From the NCBI GenBank assembly GCA_020849655.1, contig JADLFU010000230.1, positions 1-43,947 of the forward strand: a DNA stretch of 43,947 bases, written 5' to 3'. The translations under genes were made by a program, and so were the position numbers. Positions 8,689-15,652 of the stretch are shown one piece after another. Every line of letters begins with the position of its first letter. Within the stretch, counting starts at the first letter, position 1. The DNA is from Polyangiaceae bacterium (lineage in GTDB: Bacteria; Myxococcota_A; Polyangia; Polyangiales; Polyangiaceae). A model generated the notes under the pieces. That model searched no databases. It saw nothing but the letters and a program-made list of their open reading frames with translations, and had not been told where the DNA came from.

Positions 8689-9425
8689 GCGAGCGCTCGG
8701 GGTGGGCCGCGCTCGAGGTCATCTGGCCGATGGCGACCATCACGGCCGGCACGATCGCGGACGCCGCGCGCGGGACGCTGACGATCGAGGCGACCAACCG
8801 GCGGCTGACGTGGTGGGGCGCCGAGACGCTGCGCCGCACGGGGATCGAGCTGCGCCTGCGCGGCACCGGCCACCTCGCGGGCGGGCCTTTTCTCGTGATG
8901 AGCAACCATCTCAGCCACTTCGACGTGCCGCTCCTGTTCGCGGGGGTCGGCGGCAACCTGCGGATGGTCACGAAGACCGAGCTGTTTCGCATCCCCGTCT
9001 GGGGCCCGGCGATGCGCAAGTCCGGCTTCATCGAGATCGACCGGAAGAACCGCGAGCGCGCGCGCCAGAGCCTCGAGCGCGCGAAGGACACCCTGCGCGG
9101 CGGCGTCAACGTGTGGATCGCGCCCGAGGGCACGCGCTCGCGCGACGGCGAGCTGCAGGCCTTCAAGAAGGGCGGCTTCATCCTCGCGAGCGAGATGGGC
9201 GTCCCCATCCTGCCGGTCGCGATCGCCGGCACACACGAGATCCTCCCGCCGACGACGCTGAAGGCGCTGTCGGGCGGCACCGTCGCCATCGTGATTGGCG
9301 CGCCGATCGCGAGCGAGGGGCGCGACAAGGAGACCCTGCTCGCCGAGACGCGCGCCGCCATCGCCGGGCTGTGCGCCGAGGCGCGCGCGCTCCGCGCCGG
9401 TCAGCCGCCGAGCTCGAGCGAGTAG
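8685..9425 (+). CDS. plsC: 1-acyl-sn-glycerol-3-phosphate acyltransferase (PlsC family)
   Basis: A 246-residue protein from a GTG that overlaps the dnaJ stop. The four acyltransferase blocks are present: NHLSHFD (H75-x4-D80), a [24 protein letters not shown] segment for acceptor binding, [10 protein letters not shown] (147-151 core), and [17 protein letters not shown]. The N-terminal region [20 protein letters not shown] could form a weak membrane-associated helix. The expected role is acylation of lysophosphatidate to phosphatidate in membrane lipid synthesis. It differs clearly in sequence from the shorter family member at 5271. Its last 25 nt overlap the end of the convergent lipoprotein gene. 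Confidence 0.9.
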
Positions 9426-10000
9426 CTCACCTTCGTCAGGCCGGTGCGGGGGCGCTTGAAGTCGATGCCCTCGAACGCCTTCAACATGCAGTCCTTGAAG
9501 GGCGCGCCCTTCAGGGACGTGCGCACGCGATCGATCGATTTCAGCTTCCCACCCTCGCGCGGGATCAGGAGATCGACGCCGAAGGTGCCCTTCGCCTTCG
9601 GGTCACCGAGCAGCGCCCAGCAGCGCCGGAACTCGTCGAAGTGCGGGGCGACCGACTCGCGGATGGGAGCCTTGTTCGCGTCCTGGTTCGCGTCGGGGCC
9701 TCCGCCGATGTGCATCCCGATGTTCGCGACGCGCACTTTCGGAGGGGGCGAGGCGTCCGCGGGCGGCGCGCTCGTGGCCGGGTCGGGCGCCGCGACGTGG
9801 ACGGGGGCCGAGGCCGTCGACGCCGGCTCCTGTGGCGGCGGCGCGGGCGCGGGGGCGGCCTGAGCCGCGGACGTCGAGGCGGGCGGCGCGGGGAAGGCGA
9901 TCGCGCTCGGCGCGGGCTCGCGGCTCGCGTCCTTCGACGGGGGGCTCTGGGCGCAGCCGGCGACGAGCAACGAGAGGGCGACCAGCGGCGAGGGGCGCAT
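9401..10000 (-). CDS. Lipoprotein with AgmX/TonB-like C-terminal domain
   Basis: A 199-residue protein with a clear lipoprotein leader ending LLVAGC, then about 85 residues of Pro/Ala/Ser-rich linker. The C-terminal region, about 105 residues, reads IRESVAPHFDEFRRCWALLGDP, GTFGVDLLIPREGGKLKSIDRVRTSLKGAPFKDCMLKAFEGIDFKRP. It resembles the AgmX/PglI C-terminal (TonB-C-like) domain common in myxobacteria, including the paired cysteines. Such proteins sit in the envelope, but the function here is unknown. It is divergent from the dynamin-like GTPase gene (87 nt apart), and its 3' end overlaps plsC by 25 nt. Confidence 0.75.
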   Translation of the reverse strand: MRPSPLVALSLLVAGCAQSPPSKDASREPAPSAIAFPAPPASTSAAQAAPAPAPPPQEPASTASAPVHVAAPDPATSAPPADASPPPKVRVANIGMHIGGGPDANQDANKAPIRESVAPHFDEFRRCWALLGDPKAKGTFGVDLLIPREGGKLKSIDRVRTSLKGAPFKDCMLKAFEGIDFKRPRTGLTKVSYSLELGG

Positions 10001-10087
10001 CGGGCGCGTCGGTAGCCGAACCTCGAGCCTGCGGGAAGCGCGCCCCACGCGCCCCGCGCGGCGCTCGGGTGCTAACCTCGCCGCCCC

Positions 10088-12598
10088 ATGTGGAGCCCCG
10101 AAGGCCGACAAGAGACCGCCCGTGACCTCGCGAAGATCGAGGCGAAGCTCGCGCGCTACCGCCAGCTCATCCAGCGCTTCTCCGGCTACTTTCCCGGCGA
10201 GAGCGACGCGGGCCGGCTGCTGCGCGAGCTCGACAAGAAGCTCGCGGATCTGCGCGACCGCGCGGCCGATCGCCACAAGCGGCTCGCGAAGGGCGTCGTG
10301 AAGATCGGCGTCGTCGGGCTCGAGAAGCAGGGCAAGAGCGCGTTCCTCTCGGCCTGGCTGAAGAGCGAGCGACTGCTGCCGAGCGAGGCCGAGCGCTGCA
10401 CCTGGAGCACGACGCTCATCGAGCCCGGGCCGCCGGGGCGCTGCTCCGCGACGGTCACGTACTACACCGCGGACGAGCTCGAGGCGCGCATCGCGAGCTA
10501 CTTCGAGGTGCTCGAGGCGGGCTCCAGCAAGCGCTGGCAGGGGCTCGACCGCGCGGAGCTGTCGCGGCTGCGCGCGGCGTTCAAGGAGCGCGAGGGGTAC
10601 GACGTCGACGATCCCGATCGCGCCGGGCGGCGCGAGCAGATGGCGTTCGTCGAGCTCTCCGAGATCGCGGCGGATCTCTCGAATATCAAGGCGCGCCTCG
10701 GGCGCCCCGCCGAGACGCTGTCGGCGGCGAGCACCGACGAGCTCGCGGAGCTCATCCGGCCCTTCATCGCGCTGAAGGACACGCGCAGCGGCAACCGCCC
10801 GTACGCCGGCGTGCGCGCCGTCCGCGAGGTGACGGTGACCATCCCCGTCGAGGGCGCGACGCGCGGGGTCGTGCTCGTCGATCTTCCCGGCATCGACGCG
10901 CCGAGCGACAAGGCGCGCCGCGACACCGAGGACGCGCTCGCGAACGAGGTCGACGTCACGCTGTTCGTGAAGGACGTCACGCGCCCCTCGCTCGTGCGCG
11001 CGGAGCTCGATCTGTTGCGCTCGGCGCAGTCGGCCGACCGCAGCATCTCGCTGAAGGATCGCATGTTCGTCGTGCTGACGAAGATCGATCTCTTCGACCG
11101 CCCCGACGAAAATGGCCATTTTCACTGGGCGCTCGCGGCGCGGAACATCAAGGAGCAGGGCGTCGATCGGGTGTTCCCCTACTCGAAGGTCTGGGCGCAC
11201 CAGGGCGCGGACGAGCGCCACCCGGTCGCGCGACAGATCATGGACTTCTACGGCGTCGCGCGGCCGACCTCCGGCCTCGACGAGCTGAAGCGCGCCGTGC
11301 TCTCGTACCTCGAGACGGAGGTCGAGGGGCTCGATCGGCGCGTGATGACCGGCCTCGCGACCGAGCTCGCCGAGGCCGAGACGCAGCTGCGCGGCGCGCT
11401 CGTGTCCGTCAAGGACGCGCTCAGCGATCGCGAGTTCGAGCGCCGCGGCGAGCAGGTGTTCGACGAATTGTTCGAGAACGTGCGCGCCGGCGAGGATCCG
11501 ACGGGCCTCTTGCCCGAGATCAGGACGCGCCTGTCGGGGTTCATGGACCACGAGGTGAGCGAGGCGGAGCGCGTGCGCCGCGCGGGCCGGGCCGATCAGC
11601 GCATCAAGCAGATCAAGGCCGATCTGCTCGCGCGCCTCACGCCCGAGGAGGCCGAGGCGAAGCGCCGGCAGATGCCGAGCCCCGGCCTGATGAACGAGAC
11701 CGCCGTCGAGATCGAGGTGCGCAAGCAGATGCGCGAGCGCGTCGCGGCGAAGATCTCCGGGCTCGGCGAGGATTTTCGCTCGACCGCGCGCGACAGCGTC
11801 GAGCGCATGCTGACCGAGATGTTCGTGAAGGCGAGCTACGACGGCGGCCGCCTCGAGATCCTGCTCCCGCCGGGGCCGAGCGTCGTCGGTCGCATCGACT
11901 CGCTCGGGCGCTCGGGCCACGTCTCCGAGAGCGTCGTGCGGTACCAGAACCACGAGATGGCGAAGGCCGACGTCGCGTTCGAGGTGCTCTCGCGCTATTT
12001 CGCGCGGCAGATCATCGACATCCTCGACGCGACCGATCCCGGCGACCGCGAGGTGCGCGAACGGGAGATGCGCGGGCTCGAGCAGTTCTTCGGGATGGGC
12101 ATCGCCGACAAGGCGCAGACGCCCGGGATCGTCGAGCGCGTGAAGCAGAAGATCTCGGGTGACAGCGGCGACGAGAGGCCCGCGGACAAGCCGGGGTTTC
12201 CGTCGGTGCAGGGCGCGTTCCCGCAGGTCGGCGCGCCCGTCGCCGTGAAGCCCGCCGACCGCGAGGCGGGCGCGAAGCCCGAGGTCCCTCACGCCGCCGC
12301 GGGCGCGCGGGACTGGTCGAGGATGATCGCGCGCGTGCGGGCGGACGTGGAGCGCATCTGCAACTTCCTCGAGGCGCTCGCGAAGCACCCGCGCGGCCTG
12401 CAAAAATACCACGAGGAGGCCGTGCGCACCGTGCACGACTCGTGGATCGATCGCGAGGGCGAGCAGTCGCTGCGCCGCTGGGTGCGCTCGGAGTGCGCGC
12501 GCCTGTGGCCGCACCGGTTCGCCGCGCTCGAGGCCGAGAAGGAGCGCGCGCGCGCCGACATCCTCGCGCTCGAGGAGCTGTTCGGGAGGGGGGCCTGA
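10088..12598 (+). CDS. Dynamin-like GTPase
   Basis: An 836-residue large GTPase. A helical N-terminus (1-70) precedes the G domain. P-loop GLEKQGKS is at 77-84, G3 is VDLPGID at about 264-270, and G4 TKID is at about 331-334. The insert between P-loop and G3 includes CTWSTTLIEPG (a plausible G2 Thr). The remaining 450 residues are mostly helical with no obvious transmembrane segment, as in bacterial dynamin-family proteins that use amphipathic or paddle contacts for membranes. A Pro-rich break near 700-725 precedes a C-terminal helical bundle. A coiled-coil gene follows after 2 nt, so they form a two-gene unit. Membrane remodelling or another scaffold function is inference. Confidence 0.85.
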   Translation: MWSPEGRQETARDLAKIEAKLARYRQLIQRFSGYFPGESDAGRLLRELDKKLADLRDRAADRHKRLAKGVVKIGVVGLEKQGKSAFLSAWLKSERLLPSEAERCTWSTTLIEPGPPGRCSATVTYYTADELEARIASYFEVLEAGSSKRWQGLDRAELSRLRAAFKEREGYDVDDPDRAGRREQMAFVELSEIAADLSNIKARLGRPAETLSAASTDELAELIRPFIALKDTRSGNRPYAGVRAVREVTVTIPVEGATRGVVLVDLPGIDAPSDKARRDTEDALANEVDVTLFVKDVTRPSLVRAELDLLRSAQSADRSISLKDRMFVVLTKIDLFDRPDENGHFHWALAARNIKEQGVDRVFPYSKVWAHQGADERHPVARQIMDFYGVARPTSGLDELKRAVLSYLETEVEGLDRRVMTGLATELAEAETQLRGALVSVKDALSDREFERRGEQVFDELFENVRAGEDPTGLLPEIRTRLSGFMDHEVSEAERVRRAGRADQRIKQIKADLLARLTPEEAEAKRRQMPSPGLMNETAVEIEVRKQMRERVAAKISGLGEDFRSTARDSVERMLTEMFVKASYDGGRLEILLPPGPSVVGRIDSLGRSGHVSESVVRYQNHEMAKADVAFEVLSRYFARQIIDILDATDPGDREVREREMRGLEQFFGMGIADKAQTPGIVERVKQKISGDSGDERPADKPGFPSVQGAFPQVGAPVAVKPADREAGAKPEVPHAAAGARDWSRMIARVRADVERICNFLEALAKHPRGLQKYHEEAVRTVHDSWIDREGEQSLRRWVRSECARLWPHRFAALEAEKERARADILALEELFGRGA

Positions 12599-12600
12599 CC

Positions 12601-14577
12601 GTGGCCGCGCGCGATCTCGGGGCGCTCGCGAGCTACGTGAAGTTCTACGTGACGGTCGTCGCGCAGCTCGAGGTCACGCTCCGCGACCTCGACGCGGTGT
12701 GCGGCGACGCGCGGTCCGCGCTCGCGCCGCTCGTGGAGCCGCTCGCGCCCGTCGAGCACGAGTCCTTGCGCGCGCTCGCGGGGCCGTCCCCCGTCGATCC
12801 CTCCGCGGCCGCGTCGCTCTTCCGGCCCTCCGATCCCGAGCATCTCTCGGGCATCGGCGACGTCTACGAGGTCGTCGGCCGCTTCACGTTCGAGGGAGAC
12901 GACGGCGAGAACCTCGATCGCCTCGCGGCGCTCGTGCGCGACGCGCGCAGGGAGGTGAGCGCCCTCGGCCGGCGGCTCGCCGATCTCGCGCGCCTCCCCG
13001 ACGCCGCGCGCCTCGCGTCGCTGCGCCTGCGGGACGAGGAGGACGCGGCGGCGGTCGCCCAGGCAGCGGCGACGCGCGCCGAATTCGTGCCGCTCGCCGA
13101 CCAGCTGGTGGCGCGCGCGGAGCAGACGCTGTCGGCCGTGCGCGCGGTGCCGCGCCCGGACGTCCTTCACGTCGACGGCGCGGAGGCGAGGTACGCGGAG
13201 TACCTCGCGAAGGTCGGCCAGGTGTGGTCGACGTGCCTGCCCTTCCTCGAGCGCGCGCTCGAGGCGGTGTACGCGTTCGCCGGCGCGGCGGACGTGCCCG
13301 CGGGGTTTCCGGCGGAGCTCCCGCTCGCGCCCGCGCTCCCTGCGGATCTGCTGCTGGTGCCGCCGCAGGGATCGCCCGAGCTCGCGGCCGCGGAGGCGCT
13401 CGCGCGCGAGCTCGACGCCGAGGAGAAGGCGCTGCGGGACGCGGGCGTCGAGCTGGTCGCCGAGCTCGCGCGCCTGGACGCGGAGCTCCTCGCGGAGAAC
13501 ACGCGCGAGGCCGCGTCGCGCGTCGACGTCGCGACGATGACGAAGCTCGTCGACCACGCGAGCGCTGCGGACACGTGCGATCGCGAGGCGCGCGCCATCG
13601 CTGGGTTCGAGCACCAGAAGGCCGAGCGCCTGGTGAACGCGGGCAACCTGGAGGCGCGCCAGCGCCAGATCGAGGCCGCGATCGCCGCGCTCGGCGAGGA
13701 GCTCGCGAACCGCGAGAGCGAGATCCACCTGCAGGCCGAGGCGCTCGACGCCCTCCGCGCCAAGGAGCCGCTGATGTTCGGCAAGGACGAGTGGCGCGCG
13801 CGCGTCGCCGCCACCGAGGAGGACGTCGACGGCCTGCGCGCGACCTACAACCAGCGGCTCGGCGCGATGAACCAGCTGAAGATCGATCTGTCCGCGATCG
13901 GCGTCTCGGTGCAGACGGAGCAGGGGCAGGGCGCGCTCGTCGACCGCTGGATCTCGGACGCGAAGGCGCGGCACCTGCGCGCGGAGGAGCAGGTGAAGCA
14001 GCTCGGCGTCGAGCTCGGGCCCGCGCGGCCGCCGCGCCCGCTCCCGCTCGCCGACGCGGAGCACGCGCTGGTCAACGTGAAGGCGCAGCGCGCGGAGGTG
14101 GTCGACCGCGTCGAGCGCCTGCTCGGCCGGGTGCGGCGCGCGAAGGAGGAGCAGGTGCGCGCCGCCGCCCGCCTCCGGCAGATCGACGGAGAGCGCCAGC
14201 GCGCCCGCGCCGTCATCGACAGCGCCGCGGTGGCCGCGACCCAGGGCTGGGAGGTCGCCGTGCGGCGCATCGCAGAGCAGCGCGCGCACGCCGTCGAGCA
14301 GCACCTCGACGAGGTGCTCGACGGGCTCGCGCGCTCGCTCGGCAACGTCACCTCGATCTTCCTCGAGCCCGCGCTCCTCGCCGCGATCAAGGCGCACGCG
14401 GTGGAGCGCCCGCCGTCGGTGATCGTCGCGGAGGGCGCCGCGGCCGCGGAGCCGGTGGTGACGAGCCTCGCGCCGGAGCTCGAGCCGCGGCTGCTCGCGC
14501 TCGACGCGTCGCTCGGCCAGATCGAGCGGGAGTTCTGCTCGCGCGCGCGGGAGGCCTGCGCGGCCGCGTGGGCCTGA
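12601..14577 (+). CDS. Large coiled-coil protein, partner of the dynamin-like GTPase (function unknown)
   Basis: The GTG at 12601, 2 nt after the GTPase stop, gives 658 residues starting VAARDLGALASYVKFYVTVVAQLEVTLRDLDAV. A longer in-frame start inside the GTPase gene would add unrelated Arg-rich sequence and was rejected. I recognise no catalytic motif. The N-terminal 200 residues look globular-helical; residues 255-530 have long Ala/Glu/Leu heptad patterns, with one GKDEWRARVAATEEDVDGL segment between two coils; a further helical region ends at about 600. No signal peptide or transmembrane segment is seen. Spacing and size suggest it works with the upstream GTPase, perhaps as a scaffold. 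Confidence 0.75.
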   Translation: MAARDLGALASYVKFYVTVVAQLEVTLRDLDAVCGDARSALAPLVEPLAPVEHESLRALAGPSPVDPSAAASLFRPSDPEHLSGIGDVYEVVGRFTFEGDDGENLDRLAALVRDARREVSALGRRLADLARLPDAARLASLRLRDEEDAAAVAQAAATRAEFVPLADQLVARAEQTLSAVRAVPRPDVLHVDGAEARYAEYLAKVGQVWSTCLPFLERALEAVYAFAGAADVPAGFPAELPLAPALPADLLLVPPQGSPELAAAEALARELDAEEKALRDAGVELVAELARLDAELLAENTREAASRVDVATMTKLVDHASAADTCDREARAIAGFEHQKAERLVNAGNLEARQRQIEAAIAALGEELANRESEIHLQAEALDALRAKEPLMFGKDEWRARVAATEEDVDGLRATYNQRLGAMNQLKIDLSAIGVSVQTEQGQGALVDRWISDAKARHLRAEEQVKQLGVELGPARPPRPLPLADAEHALVNVKAQRAEVVDRVERLLGRVRRAKEEQVRAAARLRQIDGERQRARAVIDSAAVAATQGWEVAVRRIAEQRAHAVEQHLDEVLDGLARSLGNVTSIFLEPALLAAIKAHAVERPPSVIVAEGAAAAEPVVTSLAPELEPRLLALDASLGQIEREFCSRAREACAAAWA

Positions 14578-14626: not shown

Positions 14627-15652
14627 ATGACGACCGAGCCCCGAGGCACCGTGATGTTGCGCGTCGCGCGCGTCGTCGAGGAGACCCGCGACGCGCGCTC
14701 GATCGTCCTCGAGGTGCCGCCGGCGCTCGTCGAGCGGTTCCGGTACCGCGCCGGGCAGTTCCTCACGCTGTTCGTGGAGGTCGACGGCGCGAAGCTGAAG
14801 CGCTGCTACTCGCTCGCGAGCGCCCCGGGCGTCGACGCCGAGCACAAGGTCACCGTGAAGCGTGTCGACGGCGGGCGCGTCTCGACGCGGCTCGTGAGCT
14901 CGCTGCGCGCGGGGGAGCTGCTCGAGGTCGAGCCCCCGGCGGGCCGCTTCGTGCTGCCCGCCGACGCGCGCGCCATCGCGCTCTACGGCGGCGGCAGCGG
15001 CATCACGCCGCTCATTTCCATCCTGAAGACGGCCCTCGCCGGGGGCGCCGCGCAGGTGACGCTGCTCTACGCCAACCGCGACGAGGGCTCGGTGATCTTT
15101 CGCGACGAGCTCGACGCCCTCTCGAGGCGCTACGGCGCGCGCCTGTCGGTGCGCCACTGGCTCGATGACCGCGACGGGCGCGTGTCGCCCGGCGACGTCG
15201 CTCGCGGACCCGAGGGGGCGCACCACTTCCTGTGCGGGCCCGAGCCCTTCATGGCGCTGGTGGAGGCGAGGCTCGTCGCGCTCGGCGTCCCGTCGAGCCA
15301 TCTCCACGTCGAGCGCTTCGTCTCGCCGGCTGATCCCGCGCCCGCCCCGGCGCCGACCGTGGGGGGAGACGTGCCCGAGCGCGTCGGGATCGAGCACGAG
15401 GCCATCGCGCGTGACGTGCCCTACGTCGCCGGTCAGACGCTGCTCGAGGCCGCGCTCGCCGACGGCATCGACGCGCCCTACTCGTGCCGCGACGGGTTCT
15501 GCGGCTGCTGCGCCGCGCTCTTGCTCGAGGGCCAGGTGACGATGGCGGCCGACGACGCGCTCACGCCCGACGCGAAGAAGAAGGGCCTCATCCTCGCGTG
15601 CCAGGCGCGGCCCACCACGAAGCGGTGCAAAATTAGATTTGTCGAATACTAG
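14627..15652 (+). CDS. kshB: 3-ketosteroid 9-alpha-hydroxylase reductase component (KshB-like)
   Basis: A 341-residue reductase. An N-terminal FAD domain has YRAGQFLTLFVEV and RCYSLAS; an NAD domain has GGGSGITPLISILKTAL and the terminal FLCGPEPFM. The C-terminal plant-type [2Fe-2S] ferredoxin has Cys at 287, 292, 295 and 325 (CRDGFCGCC ... LACQARP). This order (FNR then ferredoxin) matches KshB, and the blocks VTVKR.DGG, LLYANRD..SVIF and GLILACQ.RP agree with my recollection of mycobacterial KshB. KshB passes electrons from NADH to the Rieske oxygenase KshA, whose gene is 27 kb away; the operators in front of both genes are identical. Related phenylacetate- or toluene-type reductases have the same layout, so the operator is what fixes the assignment. 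An ATG at 14654 is an alternative start. Confidence 0.82.
   Translation: MTTEPRGTVMLRVARVVEETRDARSIVLEVPPALVERFRYRAGQFLTLFVEVDGAKLKRCYSLASAPGVDAEHKVTVKRVDGGRVSTRLVSSLRAGELLEVEPPAGRFVLPADARAIALYGGGSGITPLISILKTALAGGAAQVTLLYANRDEGSVIFRDELDALSRRYGARLSVRHWLDDRDGRVSPGDVARGPEGAHHFLCGPEPFMALVEARLVALGVPSSHLHVERFVSPADPAPAPAPTVGGDVPERVGIEHEAIARDVPYVAGQTLLEAALADGIDAPYSCRDGFCGCCAALLLEGQVTMAADDALTPDAKKKGLILACQARPTTKRCKIRFVEY

Follow-up and report, generated by a model that had tools for sequence, protein, structure and literature searches.

A dynamin-like GTPase, a large coiled-coil protein and an Hsp70-like ATPase make up a probable functional unit in part of the Polyangiales

Introduction

In most cases, a bacterial dynamin is accompanied by a second one (PMC6104087). 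An example is the two-gene operon of Cj-DLP1 and Cj-DLP2, soluble dynamin-like GTPases for which heterotypic assembly is expected (PMC6104087). In LeoABC, a system located on a pathogenicity island, a dynamin (LeoA) is encoded in an operon with partner genes, and a further dynamin is split between LeoB and LeoC (PMC4159319). In the dynamin-like proteins SynDLP (Synechocystis) and BDLP1 (Nostoc), a G domain with motifs G1 to G4 is combined with a helical neck and trunk. An operon of another kind, srfABC, combines an Hsp70-like ATPase of about 940 aa with a P-loop GTPase of about 850 aa. In Xenorhabdus, SrfA, SrfB and SrfC assemble into a heteromeric complex (PMC6950479), so that binding among parts of this kind has a known example; no account of the molecular function of SrfABC-type operons was found in the literature searched.

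Here we describe a locus of a Polyangiaceae bacterium found in a stretch of 43,947 nt (henceforth, the window; contig JADLFU010000230.1). Its GTPase resembles SynDLP and BDLP1 in G domain, neck and trunk, and has them as top fold matches, with 13% identity over the structural alignment. Unlike in those two proteins, a long disordered linker precedes its near-invariant C-terminal domain, and its companions are a large coiled-coil protein and an Hsp70-like ATPase. Like Cj-DLP1 and Cj-DLP2, the GTPase is soluble and encoded in a two-gene operon; however, the second gene encodes a dynamin in Campylobacter and a coiled-coil protein here. The analogy with paired bacterial dynamins made in the initial annotation is not supported: the partner contains neither Dynamin_N nor any other GTPase family, and its model is made of long helices. 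We therefore discarded the partner as a second dynamin. The resemblance to LeoABC lies in the association of a dynamin with partner genes in an operon, and the GTPase fold matches LeoA (4aur), but the present set is core chromosomal.

The set links a dynamin, in two families of bacteria, with a scaffold that is not a dynamin and with an ATPase of the Hsp70 type, in contrast with the usual view of dynamin pairs. This defines a machine of three parts, and may help to find out what SrfABC-type operons do in the cell.

Results and Discussion

The locus

The two open reading frames initially annotated are present, separated by 2 nt:

10001..10087: divergent intergenic region of 87 nt, between a lipoprotein-like gene on the opposite strand (9401-10000) and the GTPase gene.
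10088..12598, + strand: dynamin-superfamily GTPase, 836 aa, ATG start, TGA stop (Dynamin_N, E 1.2e-9; BDLP similarity by sequence; fold matches; 25 homologous loci).
12601..14577, + strand: large coiled-coil partner, 658 aa, GTG start (no family; helical model; co-occurrence in 33/33 genomes).

The promoter of the pair should sit in the intergenic region. A longer version of the partner, starting at 12442 (711 aa), was rejected because homologues align from 12601. The ferredoxin reductase gene at 14627 was likewise rejected as a conserved third gene downstream, as it is common only to one close relative. Other genes beside the pair are also of the housekeeping type (DnaJ, an acyltransferase and a glycoside hydrolase 15). 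Both genes show native codon bias (GC3 of 0.95 for the GTPase and 0.97 for the partner, similar to neighbouring genes), and an origin as recent foreign DNA was rejected on this ground. Each is present in one copy in the genome of the window, and the location is chromosomal. Transmembrane helices are absent from both products, as had been claimed: the maximum Kyte-Doolittle mean over 19 residues is 1.22 in the GTPase and 1.42 in the partner.

The GTPase

The following elements were recognized in the GTPase:

10316..10339, + strand: G1 / P-loop GLEKQGKS, aa 77-84; 30/30 homologues.
10397..10414, + strand: G2 region CTWSTT, aa 104-109; 30/30 homologues.
10469..10777, + strand: mostly helical stretch between G2 and G3, about aa 128-230 (AlphaFold2 model).
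10880..10891, + strand: G3 DLPG, aa 265-268; 30/30 homologues.
11078..11089, + strand: G4 TKID, aa 331-334; TKxD in 30/30 homologues.
11813..11923, + strand: candidate trunk-tip (paddle-like) segment TEMFVKASYDGGRLEILLPPGPSVVGRIDSLGRSGHV, aa 576-612; conserved, largely non-helical.
12101..12304, + strand: disordered variable linker, aa 672-739; pLDDT under 50 and the lowest conservation in the protein.
12305..12595, + strand: C-terminal helical domain with near-invariant HPRGLQKYHEEAVRTVHDSWIDREGEQSLRRW, aa 740-836 (alignment and AlphaFold2), including a C-terminal helix that bears HPRGLQKYHEEAV.

G1, G3 and G4, initially annotated as intact, are so in every homologue aligned, and the same is true of G2, which had not been listed. 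The Pfam model Dynamin_N matches the GTPase with 38.9 bits (curated cut-off, 27) and was matched in 20/20 aligned members. Similarity to BDLP is also detectable by sequence around G1-G2. An AlphaFold2 model built with 20 relatives is of moderate confidence (pLDDT 72, pTM 0.43). In this model the G domain is flanked by a helical neck and trunk like those of dynamin-like proteins (predicted helices 396-667 and 744-832), with the linker and the C-terminal helical domain following. Foldseek gave SynDLP (4.8e-12), BDLP (3.1e-9), Cj-DLP1/2, IniA and mitofusins as top folds, and VIA-align superimposed the model on mitofusin 1 (Z 17.6, 330 residues, rmsd 4.9) and on SynDLP MGD (Z 14.8, 402 residues, rmsd 6.6). 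Altogether, Dynamin_N, the four G motifs and the neck and trunk place the GTPase in the dynamin superfamily. Given this predicted fold, a membrane or scaffold role is plausible; as a dynamin, the GTPase would be expected to bind membranes and to hydrolyse GTP faster upon assembly.

The segment at aa 576-612 is a conserved break between two long trunk helices of the model. By analogy with BDLP, it would occupy the place of the lipid-binding paddle, which makes it a candidate for a membrane role. Charged residues are present in this segment, and it is not strikingly hydrophobic.

The coiled-coil partner

The initial description of the partner as a coiled-coil protein without recognizable family proved correct on both counts. 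No family was found in Pfam, NCBIfam or PADLOC (the latter gave weak coiled-coil matches only), and the AlphaFold2 model is almost wholly helical (mean pLDDT 87), with helices of 80-129 residues. Three conserved elements stand out:

12601..12915, + strand: N-terminal segment with a conserved YEVVGRFxFxG core, aa 1-105 (alignment).
13765..13797, + strand: conserved turn EPLMFGKDEWR (EPxxFGKDEWR), aa 389-399, between helices H259-387 and H395-475.
14014..14040, + strand: second conserved turn LGPARPPRP (core LGxxRP, 472-477), aa 472-480, between helices H395-475 and H483-581.

Among 16 aligned sequences, P390, G394 and W398 are invariant in the first turn, and L472, G473 and R476 in the second. 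We read the model as long helices that would fold back on each other, antiparallel, at the two conserved turns. The nearest structural neighbours are the arms of SMC, Rad50 and MukB and generic long coiled coils, a comparison limited by the fact that long coiled coils match one another non-specifically; Foldseek searches with the partner model gave no match below E 1e-3. In one genome of the Polyangium group (G339, L104 10240 onwards), the coiled-coil gene is split in two overlapping frames, probably by a sequencing frameshift.

Co-occurrence and inheritance of the pair

A scan of the genome collection yielded 25 loci, with full-length identities of 61-93% for the GTPase and, where the contig continues and the genes are linked, of 30-75% for the partner. 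Flanking genes are common only to the window and its nearest relative, and hence the conserved unit is the pair itself. Genome surveys used the GTPase, the partner and the ATPase (see below) as single-protein queries; beyond the Myxococcota, the scope was that of plasmid, phage and viral collections plus the genome-collection scan. Relevant results for the pair are as follows:

(i). In the phylum survey, both genes were found in the same 13 of 377 genomes. In the Polyangiales survey (183 genomes), 33 carry the GTPase and 34 the partner, the only partner-only genome being a 64%-complete MAG.

(ii). Independent occurrence of the two genes was looked for and not found: all 33 genomes with the GTPase carry the partner. 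Among 111 high-quality Polyangiales genomes, 24 have both, 87 have neither and none has one alone. The nominal Fisher P for joint presence (7e-25) treats relatives as independent and is overstated, since related genomes are not. Carriers are clustered phylogenetically in two families and 17 of 83 genera, and this clustered co-occurrence may reflect few events of gain or loss.

(iii). GTPase and partner genes are adjacent, with fewer than 110 nt between them, in 26 of 33 genomes, a recurrence that lies far above chance. They are 99 kb apart in genome G159, and on separate contigs in G434 and in four genomes of genus g29.

(iv). The GTPase and partner trees contain the same main groups and agree in their main forks, and inheritance of the set is vertical. 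Since the trees separate two main unlinked groups, linkage has been lost at least twice with both genes kept.

Strict co-occurrence and retention after unlinking support the initial proposal that the pair acts as one functional unit.

An Hsp70-like ATPase as third member

Clustering of neighbouring genes uncovered an ATPase gene (about 930 aa) that ends a few tens of nt upstream of the GTPase gene in many relatives. This ATPase is found in the same 33 Polyangiales genomes as the GTPase, less than 250 nt from it in nine; beyond these there are just two matches, a fragment from a 76%-complete MAG and a weak one of 27%. In the complete chromosome of Minicystis rosea (G451), 838 kb separate ATPase and GTPase. 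In the genome of the window (G000), the ATPase gene (about 904 aa) is on a contig other than that of the pair (C135:21258-24011; loci L144 and L160). A reading of this gene as broken was discarded, as the reported TGA sits upstream of the GTG start and the frame is intact. The ATPase is the third obligate member of the set, overlooked in the initial annotation: with only its two genes in view, the window does not reveal an obligate component whose gene lies at another genomic site. Unit membership of GTPase, coiled-coil protein and ATPase is well supported, and the three very probably make one functional unit.

The motifs GIDFGTT, FDFGGGTLD and LLAGNSSRS are conserved in the ATPase alignment (A3); we take them to be the phosphate-1, phosphate-2 and adenosine motifs of the Hsp70/actin fold. 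Weak matches to HscA/DnaK models lie over FDFGGGTLD. The N-terminal 300 residues or so belong to no known family, and the ATPase as a whole is not covered by any family of Pfam, NCBIfam or PADLOC. Judging from its motifs, the ATPase would belong to the Hsp70/actin superfamily, its core being weakly recognized by sequence.

A small coiled-coil protein (about 250-290 aa) is a frequent fourth member, present in 16 of the set-bearing genomes; it was not found in the genome of the window. The four-gene order ATPase - small coiled coil - GTPase - coiled coil is seen in two genera (L018 and L026). Genes for Ser/Thr kinases also lie near the set in several genera (L011 8059-9675; L164 10841-12406; L165 6462-8015; L170 5573-6835; L006 12613-16659), once between the GTPase and coiled-coil genes. 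They were discarded as parts because they are of several kinds, lie in differing places and are common in these genomes.

Membrane remodelling or scaffold

Our tentative reading, which we hold at somewhat less than even probability, is that the set is a chromosomal, vertically inherited three-part machine of part of the Polyangiales, in which a scaffold and an ATPase factor would assist membrane remodelling. Its components deserve separate judgement. GTPase-driven membrane remodelling with a scaffold, as suggested by the models, comes near to an even call. In such a scheme the soluble GTPase would assemble on or between membranes in a GTP-dependent manner, through the trunk tip, and the coiled-coil protein would serve it as a rigid scaffold, tether or spacer that touches partners at the conserved N-terminal segment and the two helix-turn tips. 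A role of the ATPase as assembly or disassembly factor is more doubtful; if so, it might load or take apart the GTPase/coiled-coil assembly. From these models we infer that the task may concern the cell envelope or an internal membrane rather than defence.

The main rival is a cytoskeletal or nucleoid scaffold. The GTPase would then be a dynamin-fold switch acting on a structure built from a coiled coil akin to an SMC arm, polymerized or loaded by the ATPase. The lack of transmembrane or clearly hydrophobic segments in any part speaks for this explanation, as do the SMC, Rad50 and MukB arms found nearest to the coiled-coil protein and the actin/Hsp70-type motifs of the ATPase. However, those structural matches are non-specific, none falling below 1e-3, and most solved bacterial dynamins have no transmembrane segments either. 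We consider a non-membrane scaffold rather unlikely.

Comparison with SrfABC

SrfABC is the nearest known arrangement, and we weighed the possibility that the set is a diverged SrfABC, with a SrfB-like ATPase, a SrfC-like GTPase and coiled-coil proteins in place of SrfA, so that its role would be the cellular function of this operon type. The Pfam model PF07520 finds true SrfB in six other Myxococcota genomes, all devoid of the present set. Where the contig continues, SrfB is followed by a protein of about 400 aa with a probable membrane segment and then by a PF10139-type SrfC GTPase. The combination and order are therefore the same, with the ATPase upstream of a large P-loop GTPase. Comparison of the ATPase with myxobacterial SrfB by hhalign gave 71% (E 3.7e-5) over 226 columns of the NTPase core, and the complex formed in Xenorhabdus (PMC6950479) also favours kinship.

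Membership fails, however, on several grounds. PF07520 gave no match in 11 ATPase members (E up to 10), and PF10139 was absent among the matches in 20 GTPase members (E up to 1). GTPase and SrfC share a P-loop match only (hhalign, 0.4%), and hhalign of the coiled-coil proteins against the third srf protein gave nothing; the latter has a probable membrane segment, whereas the present set has two coiled-coil proteins. Hence, a diverged SrfABC-type complex seems improbable to us.

Operons of the type SrfB - 400-aa protein - SrfC lie at L185, L183, L186, L187 and L184, and were not seen alongside the present set. Genome G066, which has the set, also contains a group of genes (L188 1534-10421) for a weakly SrfB-like ATPase of 945 aa, an 832-aa protein of no recognized kind, a 268-aa protein and a VWA protein; it is perhaps another ATPase system.

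A plasmid-borne relative and a wider class

Plasmid pYH12207-1 of Acinetobacter piscicola (L192 5169-13351) carries two tandem homologues of the ATPase, one of which aligned with it by hhalign at 99.9% (E 2e-34). Like the present set, this locus contains a coiled-coil gene (about 290 aa) and a fragment of a dynamin-type GTPase. It differs in being plasmid-borne, in having a HEPN gene and an integrase, and in the truncation of the GTPase; no counterpart of the 658-aa coiled-coil protein was found there. It is possibly a mobile relative of the present set, and is a single independent case of ATPase-dynamin association. A Nonomuraea match was set aside: by our own reading of the translations, its GTPase lies beside CHAT/TPR-like genes and is not the present set.

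In eukaryotes, dynamin acts with the clathrin-uncoating Hsc70. By analogy, the set might be a module similar to those of membrane trafficking, in which a dynamin-type GTPase, a coiled-coil coat or tether and a dedicated Hsp70-type ATPase go through a cycle together, with SrfABC and the Acinetobacter locus in the same class. We find this quite improbable; if true, there would be one wider class of ATPase-dynamin systems.

Phage defence

Defence against phage had been raised as a possibility in the initial annotation. In a scheme of this kind, which might extend to other mobile elements, the dynamin would act at the membrane during infection, with its partners as sensors. Two observations lend it some appeal: dynamin-mediated phage tolerance is reported for Bacillus DynA (PMC8844932), and the ATPase relative on the Acinetobacter plasmid has a HEPN gene, an integrase and a dynamin fragment as neighbours. 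The set itself, however, is vertically inherited with congruent trees, single-copy, kept through whole genera and flanked by ordinary housekeeping genes, unlike the mobile, patchy distribution of defence islands. No relative of the GTPase was found in the phage or viral collections searched, and PADLOC gave no model match for GTPase or ATPase and just weak coiled-coil matches for the large and the small coiled-coil protein. For these reasons defence is very unlikely, and a phage or viral origin of the set was discarded, as it has no relatives in phages or viral contigs.

Last, adjacent bacterial genes are often just loosely related in function, and the two genes of the window might have separate functions and be held together by operon convenience; this is extremely improbable given that neither gene stands alone in any high-quality genome and that separate lineages have kept both after unlinking.
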